Part shown: in pieces, positions 27,595-35,919 of the stretch
Layout of the letters: each line of letters opens with the position of its first letter
How positions within the stretch are numbered: the first letter of the stretch is position 1
Origin: Oscillospiraceae bacterium
GTDB lineage: Bacteria; Bacillota_A; Clostridia; Oscillospirales; Ruminococcaceae
Assembly: GCA_017523995.1 (NCBI GenBank)
Contig: JAFWUX010000229.1
Coordinates: 1-49,270 of the forward strand
Length of the DNA stretch: 49,270 nucleotides
Direction of reading: 5' to 3'
Position numbers and translations under genes: made by a program
Notes under the pieces: model-generated
Told to the model about the DNA's origin: nothing
Seen by the model: the letters and a program-made list of their open reading frames with translations, nothing else
The model's database searches: none

Positions 27595-27665
27595 AAACGT
27601 GATGATAGTTAAAATCGCAGAATCCTGCATTTTTGCCGGATTTCTTGCCGAAAGGAGGAACCTCA

Positions 27666-28529
27666 ATGCCGCAGAATTACAATGACCATGTGCCGAATCC
27701 GCTGGATACGCGCATTATGAAAACGCCGAGTGCCGTTGCACGGCGTGCATTCTTCTATCTGCAGGAGTGCGGACATCTCAAAGCAGGGGACAGTCACCAT
27801 ACCAGCAGACAGAATCTGCAGTCCTTCCTGTTTGCAGTTGTGCTGGACGGAAAGGGCAGCCTCAATTATGAAGGTCAGCGCTATCAGCTGGAAAGCGGTG
27901 ACTGTTTCTTCATCGACTGCCGCGCTGCACATTCCTATCAGAGCGATGCAAAGAATCCGTGGGAGCTGCTTTGGGTGCACTTCAACGGATGTACCAGTGA
28001 GGAGTATTATAAGCTGTTCCTGACACAGCAGCAGGTCGTGTTCCATCCGGTTTCCGCGATGAAATTCGTCTCGCTGCTGCAGGAGCTGATGCGCCTGAAT
28101 GCAGAGACCTATGCCGATACCGAGGTGCTGACATCGGGGCTGATCGTCAATCTGCTGACGATGCTCCTGACTGTCAACAGCATCTCCGAGGAGAGCGACA
28201 GCGCTTTGCAGGTCAAGCTGAAAACTGTCCTTGCGCATATCGACGCCAACTTCACAACCGATATCCGGCTTGATGATCTGGCGCAGCGCTTTGATATCAG
28301 TAAATATTATCTGACGCGCGAGTTCAAGCGCGCTTACGGCGAAACGATCTTCCAGCACATTATCGGGCTGCGCATCAATTACGCCAAGCGCCTGCTCCGG
28401 TTTACGGATAAATCCGTTGAGGAGATTTCAGCACTCTGCGGGTTCAATGACCAGAGCTACTTCTCCAAGCAGTTCAAGAAGGCGGAGAACGTCACATGTC
28501 TTGCGTTCCGCCGCCGCTGGAGAGACTGA
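27666..28529 (+). CDS. AraC-family transcriptional regulator with cupin sensor
   Basis: 287 residues. N-terminal cupin-like sensor (about 35-140; YQLESGDCFFIDCRAAHSY) and C-terminal double helix-turn-helix (about 185-285; FDISKYYLTREFKRAYG, then EISALCGFNDQSYFSKQFKK). ATG at 27666 has AAAGGAGG upstream. Such regulators usually sense a sugar and control a nearby transport or hydrolase operon; the ABC transporter at 30.5 kb is a plausible but unproven target. The gene ends only 9 bp before the dpaA remnant begins, so one rearrangement breakpoint lies at its 3' end. The final residues (AFRRRWRD) look like a natural AraC terminus. Confidence 0.9.
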   Translation: MPQNYNDHVPNPLDTRIMKTPSAVARRAFFYLQECGHLKAGDSHHTSRQNLQSFLFAVVLDGKGSLNYEGQRYQLESGDCFFIDCRAAHSYQSDAKNPWELLWVHFNGCTSEEYYKLFLTQQQVVFHPVSAMKFVSLLQELMRLNAETYADTEVLTSGLIVNLLTMLLTVNSISEESDSALQVKLKTVLAHIDANFTTDIRLDDLAQRFDISKYYLTREFKRAYGETIFQHIIGLRINYAKRLLRFTDKSVEEISALCGFNDQSYFSKQFKKAENVTCLAFRRRWRD

Positions 28530-28537
28530 ACGGATAA

Positions 28538-28735
28538 CCGGTTTCCGCTCGGCGCCTTTGGCGGAGCGAAGGCGAAGGCTGCCGGACGGTTCCGATGTCT
28601 GCGCTGGATGCCGTGCTGGGCGAATATCCGCTGATGATCAATACCGTTCCGGCGATGCTGCTGGATGCGCACCGGCTGCGGCTGGTGCATCCGAAGGCAC
28701 TCGTGCTCGATCTGGCTTCAAAACCAGGCGGGGAT
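28538..28735 (+). pseudogene. dpaA: dpaA (dipicolinate synthase subunit A) internal fragment
   Basis: An open frame from 28538 without a proper start reads VSARRLWRSEGEGCRTVPMS, then LMINTVPAMLL and VLDLASKPGG. These are the NAD-fold motifs INTVP and DLASxPGG typical of the C-terminal half of SpoVFA/DpaA, which together with DpaB makes the spore compound dipicolinic acid. Everything before about the ARR motif (around 160 residues in the family) is missing. The frame leaves the family sequence exactly after PGG at 28733; the continuation VDFEAASALGI is found at 35196. Confidence 0.85.
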
Positions 28736-28782
28736 GACGCCGGAGTCACTTTGAAACGCCGAAGCAGAGAGGCGGTGACCGT

Positions 28783-29550
28783 ATGAAGGACAAATGGACT
28801 GCATGCTGGGTCACGGGGCTTTTTGCGCTTGCGGCGATCGGCGTGATCGGCATGATCCTCTCAAAGCCGCGCACAAAACTGGAAATCAGCGTGAAGGCGG
28901 AGACATCCGCTGCCGCAGTGACCGCACCTGAAACTGCGGTCACTTCTGCATACACAGATGCATCTGCGGCGCGCACAACACAAACAACCACCGCCGCTGC
29001 AGAAACACATCCGCCTGCCGAAACTGCACCGCCGGAGCGGAATCTCAACCGCGCATCGGCGGAAGATCTCAAGCGTGTCTCCGGCATCGGGGATGTGCTG
29101 GCAGAGGCGATCATATCCGCAAGGGATGCACGCGGCGGGTTTACATCGCGGCTGCAGCTTTGTGCGGTCAGCGGGATCGGTGAAAATCTGACGGAGCGCA
29201 TCATGGCGGAATTTGAGATTCCGGATGAGGTGTTCCCTGATGAAGCGCCGCCGGAACCGGACAGATTGCCGGAGCCGGATCAGGAACCTGCGGAATCTGA
29301 AGCGGTATACTATATAAATGTATACGATGCGAATGCAGTGACGCGCGAGGAGCTGCTGACGCTCCCCGATATGACCGAAGAAAAGGCGGATGCGATCCTG
29401 AAGCTGCGCGGGGCGCTGGGCGGATTTCGCGGCATCTATGAGATTGCGTTTGCGGAGGGCATCTCCGGCGAATACTTTGAGTATGTGCTCCGGGCGCATC
29501 TCTATGTCGAGGGCGATCCGCATTCCATTGCCCGACCTGCGGAACCATAA
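28783..29550 (+). CDS. ComEA-like membrane protein with two helix-hairpin-helix regions
   Basis: 255 residues. A membrane anchor (8-27) and a Thr/Ala-rich spacer (about 40-85) are followed by two HhH regions. The first starts LNRASAEDLKRVSGIGDVLA and contains VSGIGENL; the second starts INVYDANAVTREELLTLPDM and contains GALGGFRGIYEI. ComEA binds incoming DNA outside the membrane in competent cells; this protein has the anchor and HhH DNA-binding units but a duplicated, diverged second unit. No comEC or other competence gene is nearby. It lies inside the segment that separates the dpaA halves. Terminator follows at 29567. Confidence 0.82.
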   Translation: MKDKWTACWVTGLFALAAIGVIGMILSKPRTKLEISVKAETSAAAVTAPETAVTSAYTDASAARTTQTTTAAAETHPPAETAPPERNLNRASAEDLKRVSGIGDVLAEAIISARDARGGFTSRLQLCAVSGIGENLTERIMAEFEIPDEVFPDEAPPEPDRLPEPDQEPAESEAVYYINVYDANAVTREELLTLPDMTEEKADAILKLRGALGGFRGIYEIAFAEGISGEYFEYVLRAHLYVEGDPHSIARPAEP

Positions 29551-29566
29551 ATTTCCATACAAATGA

Positions 29567-29605
29567 AAAGCCGCTGAAATGAGCAAGTTTCAGCGGCTTT
29601 GTTTC
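29567..29605 (+). terminator. Convergent terminator after the ComEA-like gene
   Basis: AAAGCCGCTGAAA (29567-29579) pairs with TTTCAGCGGCTTT (29588-29600). It can serve the minus-strand gene at 29629 as well. Confidence 0.85.
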
Positions 29606-29628
29606 TATACAGGCTTCGGCGGGATACC

Positions 29629-29949
29629 TCAGCACATGCGCGAATCAGCGGCGGGGTAGAAGTCTTCGCCCTCGATTCTGCCGAACTGCCATGCATGCGC
29701 CTTGCTCGGACGGGTCGCGGCGCCGCCGACCGGCAGATCGCAGACCAGATGCAGCGAGGGATCCATCTCGCAGAGCTCGCCGACGCTCAGGACGATTGCG
29801 TCTTCCTCGGTGTGGCTGTCGCCGCAGATGAACTCCCATGTGTTGTCATTGAAATGATGACAGACGAGCGTGATATCGCCGCCCTCAAGAACATGCGTGC
29901 AGGTCAGGACAAGCAGGTCGGGACGCTCGCTGAACGGATAGTGTGCCAT
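29629..29949 (-). CDS. Small DUF2185-like protein
   Basis: 106 residues. The ATG at 29949 is fixed by AAAGGAG upstream; longer readings run through the promoter. The sequence pattern (VCHHFNDNTWEFICGD, EMDPSLHLVCDLPVGGAATR, then a W) resembles DUF2185-type proteins, which include immunity proteins of polymorphic toxins. No toxin gene adjoins it. Soluble and acidic. Family assignment is tentative and function unknown. Confidence 0.7.
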   Translation of the reverse strand: MAHYPFSERPDLLVLTCTHVLEGGDITLVCHHFNDNTWEFICGDSHTEEDAIVLSVGELCEMDPSLHLVCDLPVGGAATRPSKAHAWQFGRIEGEDFYPAADSRMC

Positions 29950-29982
29950 AAAAATCTCCTTTCGGTTGCTTCTGATACTATC

Positions 29983-30011
29983 ATGATACAGGAAAATGCC
30001 GGAAAAATCAA
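29983..30011 (-). promoter_or_regulatory. Promoter of the DUF2185-like gene
   Basis: Minus strand TTGATT (30006-30011), 17-base spacer, TATCAT (29983-29988). Confidence 0.6.
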
Positions 30012-30271
30012 GCGGGAATGTGATAAAACGGTGAAACTTTGCCCGATCTGCCGGAAAAATCACGATCTGAAAACCCAAAATTACCGGAAACCGCCTGAGA
30101 GCGTGATATTTGAAACGCCATTTTGTAAGAAAAGAGCCCGTTTTTTGTAACCGAAATGTAACAAACTCGAAAAAAACGGTTGCAAAAAAGAAAAGCTGTA
30201 CAAAACAAGTACAGTCTGGTTGTCTAATATGCACATTACAAACAAATAAGGTGACGAATTGATGATTCCCA

Positions 30272-30300
30272 TTGACTTTTCGGGCGATTTCGTGTATATT
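30272..30300 (+). promoter_or_regulatory. Promoter of the carbohydrate ABC transporter
   Basis: TTGACT (30272-30277), 17-base spacer, TATATT (30295-30300). The gap 30012-30271 upstream shows no gene. Confidence 0.7.
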
Positions 30301-30305
30301 ACAAG

Positions 30306-30523
30306 TATAAAAACGAGGCAAAGGCAACGGTCTCTGACGGAAGCCTGACACCAGATGAAATCAGAACCTGAACCTTGTTTGGAGGAAGCCAACTCAATCA
30401 ATGAGCCGCGCTTCCAGGCTGCGCAAAACGCAGCGAGAATCACACCCGCCTGAGACGGGTACACATTTTCTGGCGCTGCGAACGCAGCAAATTTTCGCAG
30501 CAAAATGAAGGAGGAAACTTACA
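30306..30523 (+). promoter_or_regulatory. Long structured leader of the ABC transporter mRNA
   Basis: About 218 nt of untranslated leader. It contains GCTGCG twice (30418, 30475) and CGCAGC three times (30429, 30483, 30496), so several hairpins compete. The longest local one, GCTGCGAA with TTCGCAGC (30475-30482/30494-30501), ends just before the AAGGAGG ribosome-binding site. An ACCCG/CGGGT hairpin lies at 30453-30470. No known riboswitch class recognised. Confidence 0.45.
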
Positions 30524-31969
30524 ATGAACAAGCTTAAGAAGTCCCTTGCTCTGATTGCTACTCTGGCAATCGCATCCACCGCTTTCTATGCATGCGGTGA
30601 TTCTTCCAGCGAGACTGGTACCACTGAGTCCAGCGCAACTGAGTCTTCCGAAGAGTCCTCTGAGGAGTCTTCTGAGGAGTCCGCTGAGGAGTCTTCTGAA
30701 GAGTCTACTGAGGAGTCCGCTGCTTCCGGCGAGAACACCGTTCCGGAGACTGGCGACAAGCTCTCCATTCTCTGCTGGACCGGCGACGACGTCGAGAAGA
30801 TGATCGAGAACTTCACCGATAACACCGATTACACCGCAGACCAGATTGAGTATGTCAACGTTGGTTCCAAGGGCGGCGAGGCTCGTGAGCAGTATGCAAA
30901 CTACTTCGCAGGTGACGAGGATGTTGACCTCTTCGTTCTCGAGGCTGACTGGATCCTGGACTACATCAACAACGATGACTACACCGCTCCGCTTTCCAAC
31001 CTCGGCTTCTCCGAGTCTGATTTCGATGGCTGCTATGATTACACCGTTTCGATCGGTACTGATAAGAACGGCGTTCTGAAGGCTGCTTCCTGGCAGGCAA
31101 CTCCGGGCGGCTATGTTTACAGAACCGACCTCGCTGAGGAGTACCTCGGTGCAAAGACTCCGGATGAGATGCAGGAGTTTGTTAAGGACTGGGATACCTT
31201 CACTGCAACTGCTAAGAAGCTGCAGGATGACGGTCACAAGATCGCTATGGCTGATACCCTCGGCGGTATGTGGCAGGTTTGGCAGTACAACCGCTCCAAC
31301 GCATGGCTCGATGCAGACAACAAGCTCGTCGTTGACGATTACTGCAAGACCTACGCAGATCTCGCTAAGGAGTACTATGAGAATGGCTATGTAACCAAGG
31401 AAGATCAGTGGTCTGACGGCTGGTACGCAATCGGCCAGGATGATTCCACCATGGGTTACTTCTTCTGCACTTGGTGCCTCGGTAAGGGCTCTATGCTCTC
31501 CAACGCTGAAGGCGGCGAGGGCGGCAAGACCTACGGCAAGTACAACATCACTGCTGGTCCGTCCGACTGGGCATGGGGCGGCTCTTGGCTGGCTCTCTCC
31601 CCGAAGTGCGACAACGGCCAGATCGCTCACGACTTCATCAACTACTTCACCGTTGATGCTTCCACTGCTAAGGACTACGCTCTGTTCAAGTCCGAGTTCG
31701 TTAACAATCCGGATGCTATGAAGGCAATTGTTGACGAGGGCTCCAACAAGAACGATCTCCTCGGCGGCCAGGATCAGTTCTCTGTTCTGTATGAGTCTGC
31801 AGCTAACATCGACATGGATGGCAAGATCACTGCATTCGACAGCCAGATCAAGGACGCTTTCAACACCGCTGTTACCAAGTATGCTAAGGGCGACATCGCA
31901 TCTTACGATGAAATGATCACCGAGTTCAAGAAGGAAGCAGCTAAGATCGAGGGTATCACCGTCGAGTAA
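30524..31969 (+). CDS. Sugar ABC transporter substrate-binding lipoprotein
   Basis: 481 residues. Lipoprotein signal with lipobox FYAC (Cys24), then a Ser/Glu spacer (29-66) built from SSEE repeats, then a family 1-type extracellular solute-binding domain with many aromatic residues near the binding cleft (GMWQVWQYN, WAWGGSWLAL). It delivers a carbohydrate, probably an oligosaccharide, to the two permeases that follow. Codon use is strongly shifted (many GCT, TCT, GTT, AAG) compared with neighbours, as in very highly expressed genes. The partner ATPase is absent, as is common when one shared MsmX-like ATPase serves several importers. Confidence 0.93.
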   Translation: MNKLKKSLALIATLAIASTAFYACGDSSSETGTTESSATESSEESSEESSEESAEESSEESTEESAASGENTVPETGDKLSILCWTGDDVEKMIENFTDNTDYTADQIEYVNVGSKGGEAREQYANYFAGDEDVDLFVLEADWILDYINNDDYTAPLSNLGFSESDFDGCYDYTVSIGTDKNGVLKAASWQATPGGYVYRTDLAEEYLGAKTPDEMQEFVKDWDTFTATAKKLQDDGHKIAMADTLGGMWQVWQYNRSNAWLDADNKLVVDDYCKTYADLAKEYYENGYVTKEDQWSDGWYAIGQDDSTMGYFFCTWCLGKGSMLSNAEGGEGGKTYGKYNITAGPSDWAWGGSWLALSPKCDNGQIAHDFINYFTVDASTAKDYALFKSEFVNNPDAMKAIVDEGSNKNDLLGGQDQFSVLYESAANIDMDGKITAFDSQIKDAFNTAVTKYAKGDIASYDEMITEFKKEAAKIEGITVE

Positions 31970-32037
31970 TTTGTCCGAACGGACATTCAGACATTTCCAC
32001 AGATAATCTCGAATATGCCTGAAAAATAGCATAACCG

Positions 32038-32083
32038 AATATTTGCCTATTGGGCCATCTGTGCCCAATAGGCGAATATTTTA
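32038..32083 (+). terminator. Intercistronic hairpin between binding protein and permeases
   Basis: 17-bp stem (32038-32054 with 32064-32080) ending in ATTTTA. It is likely a partial terminator or 3'-end stabiliser that keeps binding-protein mRNA in excess of permease mRNA. Confidence 0.75.
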
Positions 32084-32130
32084 TCTGTATCTGGAATTTT
32101 TACTAATTTTTTCTTGAAAGGGTGTGCTGA

Positions 32131-33150
32131 ATGGCTACAGCTGCACAAAGACGGATCAAATCCGTCAGCTACGCGAAGTACGGCTATATGTTCATCCTGC
32201 CGTTCTTTGTCGTATACTTCATCTTCAGTTTCTGGCCGCTGATCCAGACCTTTATTCTGGCATTCAGCGAAAACGGTACCAGAACCCCGGCAATTATCGG
32301 TTTTGATAACTTCAAGACCATTCTCGCTAAGCCTGCCGAGAGTGACTTCAAAGCCCTCGGTATCCATGAGTCCTTCTGGAACGGTATGAAGAATACCCTC
32401 ATCATCTGGTTCGGTAACTTCATTCCGCAGATCGCACTCTCTCTCCTGCTCGCAGTCTGGTTTACGGATCTGCGTGTCAAAATGCCCGGCAAGGGCTTCT
32501 TCAAAGTCGTCATGTACATGCCGAATATCATTACGGCAGCATCGGTTGCAGGTCTGTTCCTGTCTCTGTTCGGCGACTCCTCTTACAGCGTGATCAACAC
32601 GCTGCTTCGCTCCGGTCAGGAGCCGTGGAAGATCATCACAAGCTGCTGGCCTTCCCGTATCTTAGTTATGTTTATTCAGGTCTGGATGTGGTTCGGCAAC
32701 ACCATGATCATGCTGATGTCCGGTATTCAGGGTATCAACGAGTCCCTCTTTGAGGCGGCTGAGATCGACGGTGCGAACTCGACTCAGACTTTCTGGCGCA
32801 TCACTTTCCCGCTCCTCAAGACCATCATGGTCTACACACTGCTGACTTCCATGATCGGTGGTCTCCAGATGTTCGATATCCCGTATATGCTCCATACCGG
32901 TAACGTTGTCAACGATTACATCAAGACGGTTGCTGTCTTCATCTATGAGATGTTCCACGGCAACTTCGCGAAGCCTTCGTTCGGTTACTCCGGTGCGGCA
33001 TCTGTCATTCTGTTTATCATCACCTCGATCCTCGGCGCACTGGTCTTCTATGTCCAGCGTGATAAGGACGCAATCGAGAAGAGAAAGAAGCAGAAGCAGG
33101 CTGCCAAGGAGTGGAAGCGTAAGCAGAAAGGAGGCGGATTCAGCATATGA
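32131..33150 (+). CDS. ABC sugar transporter permease (MalF/UgpA-like)
   Basis: 339 residues, six predicted membrane helices starting at about 18-45. The cytoplasmic EAA loop that contacts the ATPase is at about 208 (EAAEIDGANSTQTFWRI). A long basic C-terminal tail (KKQKQAAKEWKRKQKG) is unusual but fits a cytoplasmic end. Start after GAAAGGG. Its last four bases overlap the start of the second permease (ATGA). Confidence 0.93.
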   Translation: MATAAQRRIKSVSYAKYGYMFILPFFVVYFIFSFWPLIQTFILAFSENGTRTPAIIGFDNFKTILAKPAESDFKALGIHESFWNGMKNTLIIWFGNFIPQIALSLLLAVWFTDLRVKMPGKGFFKVVMYMPNIITAASVAGLFLSLFGDSSYSVINTLLRSGQEPWKIITSCWPSRILVMFIQVWMWFGNTMIMLMSGIQGINESLFEAAEIDGANSTQTFWRITFPLLKTIMVYTLLTSMIGGLQMFDIPYMLHTGNVVNDYIKTVAVFIYEMFHGNFAKPSFGYSGAASVILFIITSILGALVFYVQRDKDAIEKRKKQKQAAKEWKRKQKGGGFSI

Positions 33151-34037
33151 GCAGAGTAAGATATGATTCCGATAAGGGCGGCTATCAGGCGCATGTCATG
33201 GTGAAGTCGATCGCGATCTATATTGTGCTGATCCTGCTGACTCTTATGTGCCTGATTCCGATCTGGATCCTCGTTGTCAACTCGACCCGTCTGCACAATG
33301 ATATCATCAGCGGCGTGTCCCTGATCCCGAGAACCCACCTGATCGACAATATCAAAACGCTGAAAACCAATTCGCTTTATAACAAGTTCTTCGCGCCGCT
33401 GATCGGTATGAAGAACTCCCTGATCGTCGCAGGCTGCTGCTGCGCCCTGACGGTCTTCTTCTCCGGCATGACCGCTTACGGTCTGGTTGTTTACGATTTC
33501 AAGCTCAAGGGTCCGGCTTTCGTATTCATCCTCGCTGTTATGATGGTTCCGACGCAGGTTACTGCTGTTGGTTTCATGAGAATGTTGATTCAGATGCATC
33601 TGCTTGACAGCTACATCCCGCTCATCATTCCTTCCATCGCGGCGCCGGCAATCGTATTCTTCATGCGCCAATATATGCTGTCTTCGTTCCCGCTCGATAT
33701 CATCGAGGCGGCTCGAATCGACGGCTCCAACGAATTCCGTACCTTCCTGACAATCTCCATTCCGATGATGAAGCCGGCGTTTGCTGTTCAGGCAATCTTC
33801 GCTTTCATCCAGAAGTGGAACGATTACTACAACCAGTCCATCGTCCTTGTCTCCGGTAAGAAGAACCAGCTGACAATGCCGATGATGGTTCAGAAGGTTA
33901 TCGCGATTGACCGTAACGCAGACTACGGCGCAAACTACGCCGCAATCTTCCTTTCGATCATTCCGGTTGTTGTGATCTATATTATCCTTTCCAAGTTCAT
34001 CATCGGCGGTGTTGCTGCCGGCGGTGTCAAGGAGTAA
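33147..34037 (+). CDS. ABC sugar transporter permease (MalG/UgpE-like)
   Basis: 296 residues, six predicted membrane helices. EAA loop at about 187 (EAARIDGSNEFRTFLTI). It pairs with the preceding permease to form the channel. GGAGGCGG lies just before the ATG inside the end of the upstream gene. A strong terminator follows at 34065, so no ATPase gene belongs to this operon. Confidence 0.93.
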   Translation: MSRVRYDSDKGGYQAHVMVKSIAIYIVLILLTLMCLIPIWILVVNSTRLHNDIISGVSLIPRTHLIDNIKTLKTNSLYNKFFAPLIGMKNSLIVAGCCCALTVFFSGMTAYGLVVYDFKLKGPAFVFILAVMMVPTQVTAVGFMRMLIQMHLLDSYIPLIIPSIAAPAIVFFMRQYMLSSFPLDIIEAARIDGSNEFRTFLTISIPMMKPAFAVQAIFAFIQKWNDYYNQSIVLVSGKKNQLTMPMMVQKVIAIDRNADYGANYAAIFLSIIPVVVIYIILSKFIIGGVAAGGVKE

Positions 34038-34064
34038 TATCGGTTACACCTGAATTCACCAGCA

Positions 34065-34097
34065 AAACACAGCACCTTCGGGTGCTGTGTTTCCTTT
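34065..34097 (+). terminator. Terminator of the ABC transporter operon
   Basis: AAACACAGCACC (34065-34076), TTCG tetraloop, GGTGCTGTGTTT (34081-34092), then CCTTTT. Confidence 0.9.
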
Positions 34098-34100
34098 TAT

Positions 34101-34445
34101 AAGGTACTATTAACAGGAAAAAAGATTCCAATGGATGCTATTATTTGTTAAGAAATTGCGTGCGTAAAATGAGACGTTGACTCTTAATATAGCTAAAATG
34201 GGATTCTTAAGGGATAGTATCCCTTAAGCGGGGTTTGGGGCAGAGCCCCAGTCGGTAGAACCGACCTCCTTTTTGCTAAAGGTACTATTAACAAGAAAAA
34301 AGATTCCAATGGATGCTATTATTTGTTAAGAAATTGCGTGCGTAAAATGAGACGTTGACTCTTTAATATAGCTAAAATGGGATTCTTAAGGGATAGTATC
34401 CCTTAAGCGGGAGTTTGAGGGCGGAGCCCTCATTCTAAATCCGTC
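34101..34445. repeat. Tandem duplication of a 178-bp hairpin-bearing unit
   Basis: Two direct copies (34101-34278, 34279-34445). The first 125 or so bases are almost identical (one substitution, one inserted T), and each contains TTAAGGGATA/TATCCCTTAA. The second hairpin differs between copies but still pairs: TGGGGC/GCCCCA in one, TGAGGGC/GCCCTCA in the other. No gene seen in the gap. Confidence 0.9.
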
Positions 34446-34474
34446 GGAGACACATCTAAACCAGTGAGGTGCAT

Positions 34475-35200
34475 ATGAGAGATTTTGACGCGGCGCTGAA
34501 AGCGGCGGAACGGGATATGGGCGGCAAGGGCATCGGGACGATCGGTGAGAAAACACTTCACCTTGCGCTCAAATATTATTTTGCACCTGATCCGGAAACA
34601 CATGAGCGGCCGGTCGGGGGCTTTATCGCTGATGCGGTCACGGAGGACGGCGTCATCGAAATTCAGACGCGCAACCTGAGCAGGCTGAGACCGAAGCTAG
34701 ATGCGTTTCTGCCGGTTTGTCCTGTGACAGTTGTGCATCCGCTGGCTGACCCGAAATGGGTGTGCCGCGTGGACGAAAACGGCGAGATTCTGTTCAAGCG
34801 CAAATCGCCGAAGCACGAATCGCCGCTGACGGCAATGCGGGAGTTTTATTCGCTCCGTGACTACTATGCCAATCCGAATTTCCAGATCTGTATCTGCACG
34901 GTGGAACTGACCGAGTTCGTTGTCAGAACCGGCGGGCGAAAGCGGCTCAAGCTCGACCGCGTCCCGATGACGCTGCGGGCGGAACAATATTTTCGCTGCG
35001 GTGCCGATTTCGCTGCACTGCTCCCGCCGATCCATGAGCCGTTTACGGTTCCTGAACTGACGGAAGCACTCCATGCGCCGAAGATGCAGGTGCGGATGTT
35101 TGTCAGTATTCTTGTGCGCTTCGGAATCCTCGCAGAAGCTGGAAAATCAGGGCGCATGAAGCTCTGGGCGCGAACTGACCCCGACAGCATCCGGGGTTGA
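34475..35200 (+). CDS. Conserved hypothetical protein, nuclease-like core plus winged helix
   Basis: 241 residues, function not recognised. The N-terminal two-thirds contains GEKTLHLALKYYF, then GGFIADAVTEDGVIEIQTR. The D...E-x-Q spacing resembles a PD-(D/E)XK-type nuclease core with Gln in place of Lys; this is inference. The C-terminal part (about 190-235) looks like a winged helix (FTVPELTEALHAPKMQVRMF). GAGG lies five bases before ATG 34475, and a GTG two codons earlier is possible. The last codons (SIRG) are made from dpaA-derived bases, so the original terminus may have been altered by the rearrangement. Confidence 0.7.
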   Translation: MRDFDAALKAAERDMGGKGIGTIGEKTLHLALKYYFAPDPETHERPVGGFIADAVTEDGVIEIQTRNLSRLRPKLDAFLPVCPVTVVHPLADPKWVCRVDENGEILFKRKSPKHESPLTAMREFYSLRDYYANPNFQICICTVELTEFVVRTGGRKRLKLDRVPMTLRAEQYFRCGADFAALLPPIHEPFTVPELTEALHAPKMQVRMFVSILVRFGILAEAGKSGRMKLWARTDPDSIRG

Positions 35201-35345
35201 TTTTGAAGCCGCATCCGCGCTCGGGATTCAGGTGATCTGGGCACTCTCGCTGCCGGGCAAGACGGCGCCTGTCTCTGCGGGAAAAATCGTTGCACAGACG
35301 ATCTCCGAAATCTTTGCAGAGGAAGGGGGCGGCGGCGATGGCTGA
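35193..35345 (+). pseudogene. dpaA: dpaA 3'-terminal fragment
   Basis: The frame GVDFEAASALGIQVI, then SLPGKTAPVSAGKI, is the C-terminus of DpaA/SpoVFA (family pattern LPGxxAPxTAG). It continues exactly where the fragment at 28538-28735 stops. Its TGA at 35343 overlaps the dpaB start by eight bases, the normal dpaA-dpaB coupling. It has no start of its own and its first codons overlap the end of the preceding hypothetical gene. Confidence 0.88.
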
Positions 35346-35919
35346 TCTGCACGGTGTCCGCCTCGGATTCGCGGTCTGCGGCTCCTTCTGCAATGCGGCG
35401 AATGCGCTCCGCACAGCACAGGATTGTGCTGCCTGCGGCGCGGAACTGCTCCCGATTGTCTCGGAGCATTTTGCCGGAATCAAAACGCGGTTCGGTGCGC
35501 CCGAAACCTTCCTCGAGCCGCTTGCCGCGCTCGGGAACGGCAGGCTCATCCAGTCGATCTGTGAGGCGGAACCGATCGGACCGAAAAATCTCACCGACGC
35601 GCTGCTAGTCTGCCCGTGTACCGGCAATCTGCTGGGAAAGCTCGCCGCCGGAATCACCGACAACACCGTGACGATGGCGGTCAAATCGCATCTGCGGGGC
35701 GGCAAGCCGGTGATCCTCTGCATCGCAACAAACGACGGTCTGGCAGCCTCGGCGCGCAATCTCGGGGATCTGCTGAACCGCCGTCATTATTATTTTGTGC
35801 CGTTCGGGCAGGATGATCCGCGGAAGAAGCCGACATCTCTTGTCGCGGATTTTGCGCAGGCGCCTGAGACGGTTGCTGCGGCTTTGCAGGGCACGCAGAT
35901 TCAGCCGGTGCTCATCTGA
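35338..35919 (+). CDS. dpaB: Dipicolinate synthase subunit B
   Basis: 193 residues, full length for DpaB/SpoVFB, a flavoprotein-like subunit that works with DpaA to oxidise dihydrodipicolinate to dipicolinic acid during sporulation. Motifs: LGFAVCGSFC near the N-terminus, then ALLVCPCTGNLLGKLA, DNTVTMAVKSHLR, PVILCIATNDGLA and YYFVPFGQDDP. ATG at 35338 follows AGGAAGGGGG. Its partner gene dpaA is broken immediately upstream, so dipicolinate synthesis from this locus should not work unless dpaA is restored or encoded elsewhere. Confidence 0.93.
   Translation: MADLHGVRLGFAVCGSFCNAANALRTAQDCAACGAELLPIVSEHFAGIKTRFGAPETFLEPLAALGNGRLIQSICEAEPIGPKNLTDALLVCPCTGNLLGKLAAGITDNTVTMAVKSHLRGGKPVILCIATNDGLAASARNLGDLLNRRHYYFVPFGQDDPRKKPTSLVADFAQAPETVAAALQGTQIQPVLI

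Follow-up and report, generated by a model that had tools for sequence, protein, structure and literature searches.

In a 49,270-bp stretch of DNA from an Oscillospiraceae bacterium (contig JAFWUX010000229.1 of assembly GCA_017523995.1, analysed at full length and called the window from here on), dpaA, the gene for subunit A of dipicolinate synthase, is present as two fragments: a middle piece (M) and a terminal piece (C), separated by 6463 bp and followed by an intact dpaB, the gene for subunit B (Table 1). The relatives make up a Ruminococcus-like genus, searched in 30 genomes, whose dpaA is in two or three pieces; in most of them a third piece (N), encoding the amino terminus, lies on a different contig. 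I propose that the mother cell assembles dpaA-dpaB from these pieces by programmed site-specific recombination, a reading to which I give a probability of roughly 0.87.

Under this proposal the germ line would keep dpaA in separate pieces. During sporulation, serine recombinases in the mother cell would act on paired sites at each of the two breaks, N/M (break 1) and M/C (break 2), and the resulting N-M-C-dpaB would form one transcription unit under a promoter on N, so that dipicolinic acid could be made. The mother-cell chromosome would be lost afterwards and the spore would inherit the split form. For the window this would mean removal of the 6463-bp segment between two CGGGG cores and joining of the left fragment, by deletion or inversion, to an N piece that presumably resides elsewhere in the same genome. 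Site-specific DNA recombination during sporulation would explain together the reading frames, the sites, the promoter pattern and the distribution of a recombinase described below.

Break 2 across relatives

The original prediction, made from the letters of the window, held that a 6463-bp segment splits dpaA between two copies of CGGGG and that joining at the shared copy keeps the frame; coordinates, length and frame all proved correct. Both fragments match the profile of dipicolinate synthase subunit A, PRK08306, M at 28595-28783 (profile positions 204-252, E 3.5e-12) and C over its whole length (profile positions 248-291, E 2.1e-13), and dpaB matches PRK08305 at 225.9 bits against a cut-off of 156 (E 3.4e-67).

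Loci encoding a relative of dpaB numbered 288, of which 80 were kept; 23 of these (L001-L022 and L024) form a close group. They come from metagenome-assembled genomes (Ruminococcus sp. and Oscillospiraceae, Clostridia and Clostridiales bacteria), and the window probably belongs with them, its dpaB being 93% identical to that of L001. Piece C stands before dpaB in all 23 loci, no dpaA-length frame adjoins dpaB in any of them, and in 19 of them M lies on the same contig together with the same-order cargo, although L024 has no match for the small protein of the cargo and M is weak in L013. Contigs L002, L012 and L022 start inside the segment, and L008 has piece C in another context. Wherever both M and C were read, in 22 related genomes when M pieces on other contigs are counted, they end at the identical codon, which places the split beyond chance, and the usual filling between them is the same 6-kb transporter cargo. 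No complete second dpaA was found in the 23 relatives searched. In a wider family sample of 297 genomes, dpaA was matched in 220; among the matches listed, breaks at residue 193-199 occur only in three members of the genus (G011, G014 and G018), and nearly all the others so listed extend to residue 242-245.

Could the 6.46-kb segment be an ordinary mobile element or prophage remnant that by chance landed in dpaA? Its ends do resemble recombinase attachment sites, as in prophages. However, profile scans of the segment revealed no recombinase, phage, transfer or integrase gene, in agreement with the original prediction, which had seen no recombinase there; the contents are ComEA-like, transporter and unassigned proteins. 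Furthermore, every one of the 22 relatives read has this site occupied, break 1 has co-varying arms of its own, and neither the element at other sites nor a member of the genus in which M adjoins C turned up in what was searched. A chance insertion of this kind is scarcely credible.

Two genomes depart from the usual layout. In G008 (L008 and L247), M with its usual cargo is on one contig and C on another, and the end arms remain; break 2 has become longer in this genome. In G009 (L251 and L252), the same bin contains a second copy of M and its cargo, perhaps through strain variation or duplicate assembly.

Break 1 and the distant N piece

The original prediction also noted that the dpaA amino terminus is missing and that a second break must exist. 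Alignment to intact DpaA confirms the absence from the window, and the second break does exist, with its other half on another contig in relatives. The prediction missed that the left fragment starts at a second recombination-like boundary, at 28538-28574. In most members a conserved GGTTTCC boundary precedes M, whose first residue is about 187; from this boundary GGAAACC was predicted for the far side, and sought in the window, before any N end had been seen. With the N+M protein of L010 as query, residues 1 to about 192 were then located on another contig, and of the 18 N ends later paired, 12 carry GGAAAC exactly and the other six carry variants of it.

Across the genus, 26 of 30 genomes gave a match: N and M are on different contigs in 22 and joined in three (G010, G012 and G015), and G007 shows M only. 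The remaining four (G002, G210, G321 and G322) gave no match; G002 nevertheless has piece C. If there is one chromosome, the contig ends put N and M no less than 260 kb from each other in G018 and no less than 153 kb in G021; for fragmented bins this minimum is small (6.6 kb in G005, for example). N pieces end in unrelated tails and their gene contexts differ among species. Four further genomes show the break-1 boundaries on both sides, the N side being degenerate in G317 and the core altered in G318; the contigs fetched for these four do not include piece C. Since the N piece is on another contig, a single simple excision is rejected as an account of the locus. A gene for an AraC-type regulator (27633-28529) lies just 5' of M in the window and also in most relatives, though N pieces are elsewhere.

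Paired sites at both breaks

The two ends of the segment at break 2 form inverted repeats, each about 17 bp long and next to a G-rich core, a feature that had escaped the original prediction (12 of 17 positions match in the window). Break 1 has longer arms around a shared core like GCGGAGCGAAGGCG, and in relatives the partner of the arm adjoining M adjoins N on a different contig. Own arms match better than swapped arms at break 1 (13.56 versus 11.82 of 18; 18 genomes) and at break 2 (12.83 versus 10.89 of 17; 22 genomes and the window), with 0/50000 shuffles in each case. Restricting the comparison to one row per clade gives 2/50000 for break 1 (10 rows) and 0/50000 for break 2 (13 rows). Paired arms co-vary species by species at both breaks, even between contigs: G013 has CTTCGGAGACA at either end of break 2, and in G022 each of the two contigs carries AATGTGACGAGCGGAAACCG at break 1.

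Once restored, the break-2 site also forms a dyad in coding DNA. It scores 8.74 of 10 on average and 8-10 in 21 of 23 cases, the exceptions being G008 (5) and G022 (6); outgroup genes average 5.4 and score no higher than 7 (14 genes that could be placed), and own pairs again beat swapped ones (29/50000). In G019 (L019), the conserved SKPGGVDFEAA has become SAPGGVDAEAA; both halves changed together and both changes keep the DNA dyad, as if the site constrained the amino-acid sequence of the enzyme.

Arms that are inverse complements could also pair as RNA, and the pieces might then be joined as transcripts by trans- or cis-splicing. Splicing accounts for the arms, but not for the recombinase match (a serine recombinase tracks break 1) or for a dyad that sits in coding DNA. 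The arms show no excess of G-U pairs (14 G-U-type versus 10 other transitions at break 1, 21 versus 25 at break 2), the window has no Rfam match at gathering scores, and dpaB lacks a promoter of its own of the type found on N. Joining at the RNA level is thus very unlikely.

A probable working gene in a sporulation setting

Joined at the cores, N, M and C give a single open frame of 288-296 residues in all 18 genomes that have all three pieces. In all three pieces, silent differences are larger than those in amino acids across the six close pairs listed, for example 0.23 against 0.07 in M of G006 and G023. All dpaA pieces are open and under purifying selection across the genus, and the split does not look like decay.

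The N piece carries an AC-N15-18-CATANNNT motif, whose letters I take to be those of a sigma-K-type promoter, in 20 of 21 genomes (0.77 in shuffles) and in 4/4 further genomes; the stricter CATANNNTA form is present in 18 of 21. No sigma-K-type motif was found for C-dpaB in any of 24 cases, so dpaB seems to be without this promoter until joining. Upstream of M the same motif occurs in 5 of 20, each time 196-200 bp away, at the position of the AraC-type gene. Published reports describe a two-part sigma-K promoter with a gap of 14-16 nt (PMC517825) and assign both spoVFA and spoVFB to the SigK regulon (PMC11536998). Of 26 genomes, 25 have SpoIVA, and 20 of 22 give strong sigma-K/E-type matches.

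Decay would make the fragments relics of a dpaA broken by old insertions or rearrangements. In favour of this, no joined form was observed, and M, a short piece, evolves faster than C (median pN/pS 0.58 versus 0.30). Relics would not, however, be expected to keep open frames in 18/18 genomes, an excess of silent changes in close pairs, co-varying arms, the promoter motif on N and a SpoIVA nearly throughout. The original prediction had offered either a stepwise death of dpaA or a larger programmed rearrangement; the latter gains support, and the former does not, because the pieces are open and under purifying selection across the genus and the site arms co-vary in pairs. I consider decay highly improbable.

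Nor does it seem realistic that N, M and C are translated as separate peptides that together form a working enzyme. Under a loose rule some in-frame start is possible in 21 of 24 C pieces and 7 of 20 M pieces, but start positions vary, 13 of 20 M pieces have none, and both M and C of the window lack one. The unrelated tails of N also speak against separate peptides, which would leave selection on matching DNA arms unexplained.

Another sporulation gene of this genus is also split. In G017 (L254 and L255) a sigK-like gene is in two parts on different contigs, with a serine recombinase of 579 residues 1.1 kb from one part, which makes a skin-like case.

Candidate recombinases and points against assembly

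The original prediction raised the missing recombinase as an objection to excision, but this is answered by conserved serine recombinases elsewhere in the genomes of relatives. Recombinase C (about 485 residues) is present in all 23 genomes with break 1, plus G002, and no orthologue was found in the three genomes without break 1 (G010, G012 and G015) or in G210, G321 and G322. Its distribution fits break 1, where it would be the acting enzyme. Recombinase D (about 388 residues) is present in 21 of the same 23 genomes and was not found in G022, G318, G010, G012 and G015; in three of four loci viewed it adjoins what appears, by eye, to be a ribosomal RNA methyltransferase gene. This distribution matches break 2 only partly. 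The Resolvase, Recombinase and zinc-ribbon domains (PF00239, PF07508 and PF13408) occur in this order in the one recombinase C and all three recombinase D proteins scanned. Absence of a recombinase is weaker evidence than presence, because some bins are small.

Serine recombinases of about 420-436 residues, 33-37% identical to recombinase C, were also seen at L245 (G022), L287 (G318) and L288 (G319), and one of these might be the break-2 enzyme in G022 and G318, which lack D. Two other kinds of PF07508 protein, of about 733 and 574 residues, were dropped as candidates, being too patchy among the matches listed.

Several observations weigh against assembly by recombination. Break 2 is present without recombinase D in G010, G012, G015 and G022, so D is not accepted as the sole break-2 enzyme, and shared ancestry may inflate the match of both recombinases to the breaks. 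No excess of a sigma-K-like core motif was found 5' of recombinase C (5/20 versus 4.4 in shuffles) or D (7/20 versus 4.9), and no directionality factor was identified. Arm fit is uneven: G004, G016 and G017 rank poorly at break 1 and G004 at break 2, the break-2 arm pair of the window itself ranks 8th of 23, and break 1 has no coding dyad (own pairs 5.94 versus swapped 6.04). SpoIVA was not found in G016, and G004 and G010 gave only weak sigma-K/E-type matches. Finally, when joined DpaA was compared with proteins, no three-piece clade member appeared in joined form in the best 120 of 4635 matches, and viral contigs searched with joined-site patterns gave none. Those best 120 include clade members with N alone and, among 11 sequences read, four N+M members; proteins spanning at least 95% of the query are 42-50% identical and hence belong to other groups. 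The original prediction would have counted as a refutation fragments that never adjoin in related strains, and in the assembled DNA examined the pieces indeed never do; this fits a germ-line state, but it also means that joining itself was not observed. Failure to see the joined form is weak evidence, since mother-cell DNA is transient.

Features at the dpaA locus

The last gene of the cargo has its stop codon inside piece C, and its tail overlaps the recombination site (Table 1). Between the second permease gene and this gene, at 34101-34411, are two near-identical direct copies that have the look of a dispersed repeat, with blocks of 85 and 49 nt, 99-100% identical and spaced 178-179 bp.

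Table 1. Coordinates, in the window, of the dpaA pieces, proposed recombination sites, cargo genes and dpaB.
Feature	Position	Strand	Basis
Break 1 inverted arm CCGGTTTCCGCTC..., adjoining piece M	28538..28560	+	boundary kept in relatives; partner arms compared in 18 genomes
Break 1 core GCGGAGCGAAGGCG	28561..28574	+	similar sequence at piece N end in relatives
dpaA piece M, about residues 186-245	28562..28733	+	PRK08306 match; alignment to intact DpaA; frame kept
Outer half-site GGCTTCAAAA within piece M	28714..28723	+	10/10 positions match inverse half-site of piece C
Break 2 core CGGGG, left copy	28729..28733	+	
Break 2 left inverted arm GATGACGCCGGAGTCAC	28733..28749	+	
Cargo: ComEA-like helix-hairpin-helix protein	28783..29550	+	PF12836; TIGR01259 below its cut-off
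Cargo: small conserved protein	29629..29952	-	without Pfam match
Cargo: putative substrate-binding protein of transporter	30524..31969	+	position and lipoprotein-like start; no strong family match
Cargo: ABC (ATP-binding cassette) permease	32131..33150	+	PF00528
Cargo: ABC permease	33147..34037	+	PF00528
Cargo: conserved protein, function not assigned	34469..35200	+	without NCBIfam or Pfam match; conserved in relatives
Break 2 right inverted arm, minus-strand reading GATGCTGTCGGGGTCAG	35175..35191	-	
Break 2 core CGGGG, right copy	35192..35196	+	
dpaA piece C including stop codon	35193..35345	+	PRK08306 match
Outer half-site TTTTGAAGCC within piece C	35201..35210	+	
dpaB, dipicolinate synthase subunit B, intact	35338..35919	+	PRK08305

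Comparison with known systems

The closest parallel is vfbin, which is reported to split spoVFB (dipicolinate synthase subunit B) in Bacillus weihenstephanensis KBAB4 (PMC4191935, PMC6957869, PMC10747680) and to have a serine recombinase expressed at the sporulation phase (PMC5595907). Both cases, on those accounts, place an intervening element in a mother-cell-expressed gene of the same enzyme complex, but vfbin affects subunit B and is one element with phage-related genes; here there are two breaks in subunit A, one distant piece, a segment without a recombinase and genus-wide conservation. The gin element in gerE of Bacillus cereus ATCC10987 is described as not phage-derived and as excised at sporulation, with a 9-bp consensus at the joint (PMC5595907). 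The dpaA split resembles gin, so far as that description goes, in non-phage origin, proposed excision during sporulation and a short consensus at the joint, whereas gin is 28.6 kb long, carries three recombinase genes and is found in some strains only. SPbeta sites are reported to have 16-bp cores with 16-bp inverted repeats (PMC4191935). Skin in sigK (Bacillus subtilis and Clostridioides difficile) and SPbeta in spsM (B. subtilis) are likewise cases in which mother-cell excision restores a sporulation gene, but they are prophages or prophage-like, carry their recombinase and make one break per gene. Further afield, the heterocyst elements in nifD, fdxN and hupL of Anabaena are reported to share programmed gene assembly in a terminal cell, and ciliates assemble scrambled genes in the somatic genome. 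Both differ from dpaA in their enzymes: heterocyst recombinases are encoded on their elements, and ciliates use other machinery.

As with skin, SPbeta, vfbin and gin, exact excision between short cores restores, at the sequence level, the frame of a sporulation gene (18/18), and paired inverted-repeat attachment sites stand at both breaks, the coding dyad at break 2 only. A serine recombinase on the element was not found, as judged for the 6.46-kb segment. By analogy, the dpaA system would work like these four elements, minus the on-element recombinase and plus a second, very distant break. What would be new, on the best reading, is that the gene has two breaks and pieces lying far apart, that the cargo is ordinary, and that the recombinases are encoded outside the element. 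Searches of the open-licence PubMed Central literature brought up neither a split dpaA/spoVFA nor such a case in Ruminococcus.

Implications

The known cases of programmed assembly in sporulation genes involve single insertions, each encoding its own recombinase. In this genus of gut bacteria, one gene appears to require two joins throughout, one of which spans at least 260 kb in G018, and the enzymes are encoded elsewhere. I lean, with some reserve, towards a bolder view in which dpaA is a truly scrambled gene: three pieces, one of them hundreds of kb off, would be assembled at each sporulation by host-domesticated recombinases acting in trans, through the programmed deletion or inversion of a very large part of the mother-cell chromosome, and the sites would have co-evolved for the lifetime of the genus, bending the sequence of the enzyme in G019. 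As a practical caution, sporulation genes that are in fragments in metagenome bins may still function. The genus would also offer a natural series of matched recombinases and sites. If the proposal is true, such splits can turn into a stable, vertically inherited part of development.

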